Below are positions 37,389 through 46,282 of a DNA stretch of 46,463 bases, piece by piece. Source of the stretch: Deltaproteobacteria bacterium. GTDB lineage: Bacteria > Desulfobacterota > Syntrophia > Syntrophales > UBA2210. The notes under the pieces are model-generated. The model was not told where the DNA came from. It was given only the letters and a program-made list of their open reading frames with translations, and made no database searches. The stretch's first letter is position 1. Each line of letters opens with the position of its first letter. A program made the translations under genes and the position numbers. The stretch lies in NCBI GenBank assembly GCA_019313385.1, contig JAFDBG010000012.1:1-46463 (forward strand), written 5' to 3'.

Positions 37389-38609
37389 CTACTTTATTCC
37401 ATACTCCTTCCCATACGTCTCAACCACAAAATCTATATCCTTGTCTCCTCTGCCTGACAGGTTTACCAGTATGGTTTTGTCGCTGTCGAGAGTCCCCGCC
37501 AGTTTCGTCGCGTATGCCACAGCGTGGGCGCTTTCCAGAGCGGGAATTATCCCCTCAACCCTCGAAAGTTCAAAAAACGCGTCGAGCGCTTCCCTGTCAT
37601 TCGCCGTTACATATGTAACCCTCTTTATATCCTTGAGGAGACTGTGCTGGGGGCCGACGCTCGGATAGTCAAGACCGCTCGCGACGGAATATACAGGTAG
37701 AGGCTCTCCATCTTTGTCCTGAAGCATATAGGAATTGAACCCATGAAGTACGCCGGGTGTGCCAAGTGTCAGGGTTGCCGCATGTTCACCATCTTTAAAG
37801 CTGAGTCCTGAAGGTTCAACTCCGTACATGGAGACATCTTCATCTTCCAGGAAGGCAGTAAAAAGCCCTATCGCGTTGGAACCACCACCAACACATGCCA
37901 CCAGATTATCGGGCAAGCCGCCTGTAATTTCTTCAAACTGTTTCCTTGCCTCTATGCCGACCACCGCTTGAAAGTCCCTGACCATCATTGGGAATGGATG
38001 AGGCCCCACAACGGAACCGATGGCGTAGAACTGGGTAACAGGATCTTCGAGATACGCTTCAAATGCCGCGTCAACCGCGTCTTTGAGTGTCTTTGTGCCG
38101 CGTGACACGGGGATAACATCTGCACCCACAATCTTCATCCGGATGACATTCGGATGCTGTTTGACTATATCAACTTCGCCCATGTAGATATCGCATTCAA
38201 GTCCCACAAAGGCAGCGGCCGTCGCAAGCGCCACTCCATGCTGGCCCGCTCCCGTCTCCGCGATAATCTTCTTTTTACCCATTTTTTTCGCGAGCAGAGC
38301 CTCGCCCAGGCAGTGATTTATCTTATGCGCGCCGGTATGGTTCAGATCCTCTCTTTTTAAATATATGCGCGCGCCGCCACATTTTTCCGAAAGAGATTTC
38401 GCGTAAAAAATGGGGCTGGGTCTTCCCACATAGTCTTTATACAATGACGACAGCTCATCTTTAAAGCACTCATCATTTTTTATTTTGCTGTATGCTGTCG
38501 CGATTTCATCCAGCACTTGCTGTATCTGCGGCGGCACAAAACTGCCGCCATATTCTCCGAAGTATCCCGTCTTGTCGGGCATTTCCACTGATCCTAAATT
38601 CATGCTCAT
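37389..38609 (-). CDS. trpB: tryptophan synthase beta chain (TrpB1 type)
   Basis: [48 protein letters not shown]. Confidence 0.96.
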
Positions 38610-38610
38610 C

Positions 38611-38889
38611 CTATTCTATTCCTCCATAGTATCTGTTAAGTATTTTTTTTGTGATCGAATTATCTTTCTTCAATATCTTCGAACCTCTGGTGATCTTGCA
38701 GAGACTTATTCCATGCTTTGCCGCTATATTCCTCTGGGTATGGCCCTCGCTGAGCTCCCTCAAAAGCTTCCAGCGAAGGACGAAATCCTCGATTTCTTTC
38801 GGAGTGAGAATTTCTTCAATAAATGACTTCATTTCCTCAAAATCAGATATCTCTGTAAATATCTTTACAAGCTCGTCTCGAGAAACCAT
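38611..38889 (-). CDS. Trp-repressor-like DNA-binding protein
   Basis: [47 protein letters not shown] matches TrpR fold pattern; immediately precedes trpB1. Confidence 0.88.
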
Positions 38890-38899
38890 TTTGCCCCCC

Positions 38900-38919
38900 T
38901 GTTTCTACGGGCAGAAACA
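38900..38919. promoter_or_regulatory. candidate TrpR-like operator, copy 1
   Basis: TGTTTCT-ACGGGC-AGAAACA, perfect 7-bp arms, 6-bp spacer, 10 bp upstream of the trpR-like ATG; matching site at 45475-45494. Confidence 0.65.
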
Positions 38920-45296: not shown

Positions 45297-45327
45297 AAAA
45301 ACGCCATGGAAAAATCCCATGGCGTTT
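45297..45327 (-). terminator. second terminator between trp leader and trpB2
   Basis: Minus strand aaaacgccatgg-gattttt-ccatggcgtttt then gttttt; 12-bp stem. Confidence 0.65.
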
Positions 45328-45338
45328 TATGACTGAAT

Positions 45339-45366
45339 AAAAAACCGTGGGAAACTCCGCCCACGG
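45339..45366 (-). terminator. trp attenuator terminator (3:4 hairpin)
   Basis: Minus strand ccgtggg-cggagttt-cccacgg-tttttt. Confidence 0.85.
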
Positions 45367-45414
45367 CCGGTAAATATTTCGGTACCTACGTGGACAGATC
45401 AGAGCAGACCTGCC
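45361..45414 (-). promoter_or_regulatory. trp attenuator 1:2 hairpin and 2:3 antiterminator region
   Basis: 1:2 = ggcaggtc-tgctct-gatctg(t)cc (45414-45392); 2:3 = ccacg-ta-ggta...tacc-ggc-cgtgg (45393-45361), competing with the terminator for cgtgg. Confidence 0.75.
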
Positions 45415-45454
45415 ACCACCAGAAAAACCTGTTTTTTATTTCAAAATGCACCAT
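45386..45454 (-). CDS. trpL: trp leader peptide MVHFEIKNRFFWWWQVCSDLST
   Basis: 22-aa ORF with three tandem TGG codons (45413-45421) directly before mutually exclusive hairpins and a terminator upstream of trpB2. Confidence 0.85.
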   Translation of the reverse strand: MVHFEIKNRFFWWWQVCSDLST

Positions 45455-45474: not shown

Positions 45475-45494
45475 TGTTTCTATGTACAGAAACA
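45475..45494. promoter_or_regulatory. candidate TrpR-like operator, copy 2
   Basis: TGTTTCT-ATGTAC-AGAAACA; arms and spacer length identical to 38900-38919; downstream of a minus-strand TTGACA (45514-45509). Confidence 0.65.
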
Positions 45495-45601
45495 CAGCTG
45501 AAACCGAATGTCAAGCAAAAACAGCCTCCCTATACTCCCATCACAAAAAAGGAAGTTCTTATCAAAAAATCAAACAAATAGTTTAATCATTGAGTAGTAA
45601 C

Positions 45602-46282
45602 ATGGAAAAATACGATATAAGAAAATATATAGAAAAATATATCCCATCAAAACAAACCGTAAAAAGAGCGGCAGTGACCGGTTTAGCAGCACTAACAATT
45701 ACCACAGCAACAGCAACCCTTACAGGATGTCCTCATGCAAACCAATCCCCAGGCGCGTATGACAGCCTTGACATTGACAGCGGAGGCGGTTGTTGTTTCC
45801 CAGCAGGCACCAAAATTTCAATGTCCGACAACTCTCTAAAAAATGTCGAAGACGTCCAAGCCGGAGACACCGTAATAAGTTTCGACGAAGAAAACAAAAA
45901 ACTAGTCAACGCAAAAGTTCTGGAAGTCGAGTCCCCAATCCGAGACCACATCTGCACAATATCTTTCGATAACGGAGAAAAGCTAGACATCACAGACGAC
46001 CATCCCATCTTCACAAAAGACGGCTGGAAATCAATCAATCCAGAAGCAACCCTAAAAGGCGGGCGATACAAAATACCAGTAACAAAACTAGAAGAAGGAG
46101 ACGAAGCCTTCTGCATTAATGGAAACTATATGAAAATCTTAGATATCAAAAAAGAAATGAAAAAAACCCAAACCTTCACTCTGAAATATGTTGATAAATT
46201 TCATAACTTCTTCGCCGATAATGTTTTAGCACATAATTGCGGCGGAGGCGGAGGCGGCGGAAGCGGCGGCGGCGGACAATAA
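45602..46282 (+). CDS. predicted lipoprotein with minimal Hint/intein-like domain and Gly-rich C-terminal tail
   Basis: Lipobox ATLTGC; CFPAGTKISMSDNSLKNVEDVQAGDTVISFD (block A), LDITDDHPIFT (block B), VDKFHNFFADNVLAHNC (blocks F/G), then GGGGGGGSGGGGQ. ATG at 45602. Confidence 0.87.
   Translation: MEKYDIRKYIEKYIPSKQTVKRAAVTGLAALTITTATATLTGCPHANQSPGAYDSLDIDSGGGCCFPAGTKISMSDNSLKNVEDVQAGDTVISFDEENKKLVNAKVLEVESPIRDHICTISFDNGEKLDITDDHPIFTKDGWKSINPEATLKGGRYKIPVTKLEEGDEAFCINGNYMKILDIKKEMKKTQTFTLKYVDKFHNFFADNVLAHNCGGGGGGGSGGGGQ

Follow-up and report, generated by a model that had tools for sequence, protein, structure and literature searches.

Bacterial TrpB2 may act in the cell as the main enzyme, in indole salvage or in some other capacity. 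The locus studied here raises the question of when such a gene is read; an earlier note on this DNA had claimed that trpB2 is preceded by a ribosome-mediated attenuator sensing tryptophan. The window, i.e. the whole stretch of 46,463 nucleotides that was analyzed, encodes on its minus strand a TrpB-like protein that exceeds the curated cut-offs of both TrpB2 profiles (Table 1) and whose nearest named relatives belong to Deltaproteobacteria of the Syntrophales type. Among 149 genomes from related taxa, 137 contain TrpB2 or its paralogue. As the product is related to TrpB by profile, the gene probably serves the same amino acid as the codons of its putative leader.

Table 1. Features of the trpB2 and trpR-trpB1 loci in the window.
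Feature	Positions	Strand	Basis
Putative TrpR operator before leader, palindrome GTTTCTGTACATAGAAAC / GTTTCTnnnnnnAGAAAC	45476..45493	minus	genome scan, comparison of loci
TTGACA, probable -35 box, kept in relatives	45509..45514	minus	sequence
Leader ORF, peptide MVHFEIKNRFFWWWQVCSDLST	45386..45454	minus	direct reading; position and WWW run kept in relatives
Trp control codons, three adjacent	45413..45421	minus	direct reading
Hairpin 1:2	45390..45416 (45416-45407 with 45400-45390)	minus	fold; covarying helix in relatives
Antiterminator 2:3	45356..45398 (45398-45389 and 45386-45383 with 45372-45369 and 45365-45356)	minus	stalled-ribosome fold; covariation in relatives
Hairpin 3:4 with U-tract, terminator 1	45343..45368	minus	fold and terminator scan; U-tract family-specific
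Pairing 4:5	45315..45352 (45352-45337 with 45330-45315)	minus	fold before segment 6 is made; 4:5 counts in relatives
Terminator 2, the conserved one: hairpin 5:6, U-tract reaching about 45290	45298..45328	minus	fold z -5.1 versus shuffles; terminator scan
trpB2, TrpB-like PLP enzyme, 453 aa	43848..45209	minus	NF009057 742.5 bits (cut-off 366); TIGR01415 668.2 bits (cut-off 518.85)
Second perfect palindrome copy, just upstream of trpR	38901..38918	minus	genome scan
trpR, Trp repressor family	38611..38889	minus	PF01371 56.6 bits (cut-off 27); TIGR01321 50.9 bits, under its cut-off of 67.25
trpB1, directly 3' of trpR	37389..38609	minus	TIGR00263 549.9 bits

Leader peptide upstream of trpB2

Direct reading bore out the leader ORF that had been proposed on the minus strand, with its ATG at 45454, three adjacent Trp codons and a TAG stop codon that ends at 45386. 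To assess its conservation, 400 nt before each of 110 TrpB2 genes from the same order as the window were inspected. A short ORF containing WWW occurs on the sense strand at 78 of these loci, compared to none on the antisense strand and an expectation of 0.1 from shuffled sequences; for WW the corresponding numbers are 82, one and 4.7. The window and these 78 loci thus share the feature by which leader-peptide attenuators are recognized, adjacent cognate codons in a short ORF before the gene. The remaining loci include two with WRW and one with GWQWR, and at L157, L177, L184, L090, L091 and L094 the Trp codons are not adjacent, occurring as WRW, as GWQWR or as two W at a distance from each other. 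Some trpB2 loci have no leader, trpB2 being located immediately 3' of another gene, yet at two such loci (L109 and L141) terminator remnants of a former attenuator persist. At L128, L151 and L180 a repeat-like insert of about 250 nt separates the attenuator from trpB2.

In the alignment of relatives (A1) TGGTGGTGG is near-invariant. Conservation of the peptide is limited to the run of Trp residues and the terminal VCP, and the latter reads as the complement of the Trp-Gln codons within hairpin 1:2. This pattern bears on the idea that the leader acts in trans as a small RNA or peptide (cf. rnTrpL/peTrpL of Sinorhizobium), attenuation of trpB2 being secondary. Attenuator leader peptides can work in trans in another bacterium (PMC7298713), but a peptide that is unconserved beyond WWW and VCP, with VCP explained by pairing to the Trp codons, and an element that retains its position before trpB2 make such a role very unlikely here.

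Hairpins between the leader and trpB2

Folding recovered all three pairings that had been described for this region, including the 1:2 hairpin after the Trp codons. The 2:3 pairing exists as well, although it is longer than claimed, and the 3:4 hairpin was found together with its U-tract. It is not the sole terminator, since a second one (5:6, 45328-45298), overlooked in the earlier note, is situated between terminator 1 and trpB2 and is the conserved one. The three pairings are therefore not the complete attenuation logic; alone they would leave trpB2 shut off, because 5:6 follows 3:4, is more stable and has a long U-tract. In the window, pairing 4:5 extends over both the U-tract belonging to terminator 1 and the 5' arm of terminator 2. 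A further hairpin at 45284-45268 was excluded from the switch, as it lacks a real U-tract. No Rfam family, T-box and other known cis-regulators included, matched the window at its gathering score, and Trp_leader (RF00513) gave no match at the gathering score or at E values up to 5.

The alignment of relatives consists of six segments, 1 TGGTGGTGGCAGAC, 2 GTCTGCCCATAAGCTC, 3 GAGCATGGGCAGGG, 4 CCTTCCCATGACTC, 5 GCCATGGGAAG and 6 CCATGGC followed by the U-tract, which form two mutually exclusive sets of pairings, 1:2, 3:4 and 5:6 versus 2:3 and 4:5. In most relatives 3:4 has no U-tract. Their terminator is a hairpin 107-121 nt past the last Trp codon, equivalent to 45328-45298 of the window, and this 5:6 terminator was found in nearly all leader-bearing relatives. 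A covariance model trained on 44 relatives, none of which belongs to the window's family, recovered the window with 76.4 bits (E=1.4e-13, 45421-45297, minus strand).

Across the 44 relatives 97.8% of cells form the terminating pairings and 92.7% the read-through pairings; cells with both sides changed number 33 for the former (10.5 after shuffling) and 23 for the latter (8.8 after shuffling). Four pairs of 4:5 are changed on both sides. Exchange of segments between families weakens 1:2 in 13, 3:4 in 14, 4:5 in 13 and 5:6 in all of the 17 families, but has no effect for the unused combinations 3:6, 1:4, 2:5, 1:6 and 2:4 of similar complementarity. In a family-level permutation with wider segments 1:2, 2:3, 3:4 and 5:6 hold and 4:5 is not significant (110/1000), while a narrower test of 4:5 is significant; part of the 4:5 complementarity follows from the CCATGG core common to both hairpins. 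By covariation upstream of the relatives' trpB2 genes, helices 1:2, 2:3, 3:4 and 5:6 are well supported and 4:5 moderately so; the latter is the least certain step and can act kinetically only. Lack of conservation of the leader and its pairings, which the earlier note had named as evidence against its reading, was not the case, as the WWW leader recurs (78/110) and the helices covary. As far as sequence comparison can tell, this also contradicts a chance ORF beside ordinary tandem terminators without any regulation. Moreover, the same covariance model finds leaders with matching amino acids before aromatic genes such as trpE and aroF, and a chance origin is regarded as practically negligible.

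Eight leaders of the window's family carry a separate U-tract at 3:4; their 4:5 pairing is weaker and varies little between the modelled states. A mismatch in 4:5 and a weak modelled switch were seen in the window and close relatives of it. These features would agree with classical attenuation by the three pairings alone, in which 3:4, with its good U-tract and its competitor 2:3, is regulated and 5:6 is an inefficient or back-up terminator outside the control of 4:5. However, this is difficult to reconcile with the greater stability, long U-tract and conservation of 5:6 and with the U-tract missing from 3:4 in most relatives. An uncontrolled 5:6 would keep the gene mostly off, and most relatives would have nothing regulated. 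Classical attenuation alone is thus considered unlikely. We read the leaders of this family instead as having converted 3:4 to an extra terminator, which gives two terminators in series, the second of them at least partly controlled by 4:5.

Predicted switching of the six-segment relay

Switching was modelled in 79 relay-type relatives by folding the RNA that is free downstream of the ribosome, taken just before segment 6 is made. With the ribosome stalled at the Trp codons, segment 4 is predicted to pair with 5 at P=0.73 and with 3 at P=0.12; once the ribosome has advanced to the stop codon, the values are 0.10 and 0.73, respectively. Scrambling segment 2 in the stalled state resulted in 0.29 for pairing with 5 and 0.54 for pairing with 3. 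The shift had the expected direction in 71 of the 79 relatives and the opposite direction in none. In the stalled state the window folds into 2:3 and a 14-pair 4:5 hairpin. In silico, the leader RNA thus adopts exclusive structures that include an intrinsic terminator and are switched by the position of the ribosome. At equilibrium of the full RNA, 5:6 dominates every state (mean P 0.91-0.95 in the relatives, 0.92 in the window), and an equilibrium switch at 5:6 was ruled out, since the completed hairpin prevails in all states. We therefore infer that the switch must be kinetic and that read-through needs trapping by 4:5. Kinetic switching is generally assumed for such attenuators.

Under a shortage of charged tRNA-Trp, the ribosome would stall on WWW and cover segment 1. 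Segment 2 would then pair with 3, releasing 4 for pairing with 5 ahead of the transcription of segment 6. With 2:3 and 4:5 in place, 3:4 and 5:6 would come too late and RNA polymerase would continue into trpB2. When Trp is ample, the ribosome would reach the stop codon within segment 2, 3:4 would form, and segment 5 would be left free to form 5:6, which would end transcription. In the window's family, the U-tract gained by 3:4 would provide two consecutive terminators, and the promoter is probably overlapped by a TrpR operator. According to the model, the switch should let trpB2 be read only under Trp shortage.

Taken together, trpB2 is probably controlled by a ribosome-mediated attenuator that senses Trp-tRNA through a relay of six segments. 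The central claim of the earlier note, that ribosomes mediate Trp attenuation of a gene of the TrpB2 family, is supported as a prediction, and the predicted attenuator is conserved across the order. A conserved predicted Trp-tRNA switch provides independent evidence that TrpB2 functions in supplying Trp and is drawn upon when Trp runs short.

Probable control by TrpR and genome context

The palindrome before the trpB2 leader was spotted by eye prior to its testing. It is situated behind the TTGACA, at which a strict promoter scan made no call owing to a poor -10 region. The genome of 2.15 Mb contains only two perfect copies, one before the trpB2 leader and one before trpR-trpB1. Of the 17 trpR loci that were read, 12 have a perfect copy near trpR. 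Perfect copies also precede trpB2 in eight genomes, all of which carry TrpR, and were absent from all 96 other upstream regions compared. TrpR is almost confined to the window's family. Because of the placement of its two copies and because it tracks the presence of TrpR, the palindrome is a probable TrpR operator, and trpB2 in the window is probably under dual control by a repressor and an attenuator. The window's TrpR has the Trp_repressor domain according to PF01371 and misses the stricter cut-off of TIGR01321.

The trpB1 gene of the window stands alone, with trpR directly upstream. The earlier note had set the trpB2 leader against the lack of a trp operon in the window. Such an operon is indeed lacking, but the contrast was incomplete, as trpR-trpB1 is located at 37389-38889 and trpE of the same genome (contig C60, L199/L200) has its own leader MKNTISRANNWWCWQNSMGRFVYR (WWCW) with two tandem terminators. 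Contig C60 carries trpE-trpG and breaks off inside trpD. TrpA, IGPS and PRAI were not found in the source assembly (2.15 Mb, 93.6% complete, 138 contigs). Loss of indole synthesis was rejected in view of trpE-trpG and the start of trpD at the broken contig end; the missing TrpA does not indicate loss of the pathway, because the remaining trp operon is probably just absent from the assembly. Divergent from trpB2, the plus strand of the window carries at 45590-46282 a gene whose small lipoprotein-like product contains a Hint/intein-type domain and ends in a glycine-rich stretch.

Comparison with known attenuators

The logic of leader-peptide attenuation, including an extra hairpin of the his type, is already known. 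The his attenuator follows a six-segment scheme, A:B/C:D/E:F. Its extra hairpin follows the pause hairpin and precedes the terminator, and it has been proposed that this hairpin lowers basal read-through (PMC1183508). Like the his attenuator of Salmonella and E. coli, the trpB2 leader has an extra hairpin between 1:2 and the terminator and alternating pairings that would form a relay. This layout fits most relatives, with moderate covariation of 4:5. In contrast to the his system, the codons are Trp instead of His codons, trpB2 is the single target and the sequence is unrelated; the extra hairpin also bears a U-tract in the window's family and is itself a terminator there. The E. coli trp attenuator (RF00513) shares the adjacent Trp codons, the 1:2/2:3/3:4 logic and the added Trp repressor, which is probable here, whereas the present leader does not match RF00513, has two serial terminators and targets trpB2 rather than trpE.

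Trp attenuators predicted in Actinobacteria include that of trpB2A in Corynebacterium diphtheriae (PMC1262725). They resemble the present system in a Trp-rich leader peptide and a terminator/antiterminator before trp genes, one of which is named trpB2. However, trpB2 of C. diphtheriae forms an operon with trpA, the structures are simple two-hairpin ones and the phylum is different (PMC1262725). The rimP leader likewise harbors two tandem terminators with related motifs and a possible antiterminator, but no control-codon leader peptide is described for it and it precedes another gene (PMC2965389). No description of trpB2 attenuation in this group was found in the literature searched, whose coverage mostly left out subscription journals. 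As far as this literature shows, the place before trpB2, the Trp-coded relay, the extra hairpin turned terminator in the family that carries TrpR and the hairpin module shared with swapped codons are new.

Related aromatic leaders in the phylum

The same covariance model was run across 395 genomes of the phylum. It finds Trp leaders before trpB2, trpE and DAHP synthase genes; leaders rich in Phe or Tyr precede genes of DAHP synthase, ADTH synthase and an aminotransferase family as well as paaK. The Phe and Tyr codons are informative, because the model selects partly for the hairpins but not for those codons. In the window's own genome, a Phe leader MGNVICKQAGGFFSFFSFFEEVCLL (FFSFFSFF) with the same tandem hairpins precedes the gene of a branched-chain-type ABC-transporter binding protein (C89:16253-16372, plus strand; L202:1501-1620). 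The alternative shikimate route starts with ADTH synthase, and Tyr/Phe-rich leaders with tandem hairpins are located before the gene of this enzyme at L245 (assigned by TIGR01949) and at L250, L257, L260 and L272 (assigned by similarity).

Tentatively, and with slightly more doubt than confidence, the window may be placed in a phylum-wide family of aromatic attenuators with tandem CCRTGG-core hairpins, whose control codons (Trp, Phe, Tyr) are swapped to suit the gene. Its design would shift between a his-like form, with a non-terminating 3:4 and without a repressor, and one with doubled terminators in the sole family with a TrpR operator, matching the theory of basal read-through. The correlation between design and repressor is an observation within one family. 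These natural variants of one attenuator, with or without the extra terminator and the repressor site, make it directly testable whether an extra hairpin lowers basal read-through (PMC1183508).

Trp-rich leaders with terminators also occur before trpB2 in other phyla, at the few loci seen outside any systematic count (L032, L039, L044, L057-L059, L068). At L244 and L254, Tyr/Phe-rich leaders precede the gene of a 461-aa protein, which for L244 had no NCBIfam match; this may be an aromatic amino-acid gene so far unrecognised. L236 and L258 have Phe-rich leaders such as MSGIFFFFFYFTRSAREMAT. That of L236 precedes a gene for phenylacetate-CoA ligase (PaaK), which suggests control of aryl-acid use or Phe salvage by Phe-tRNA.
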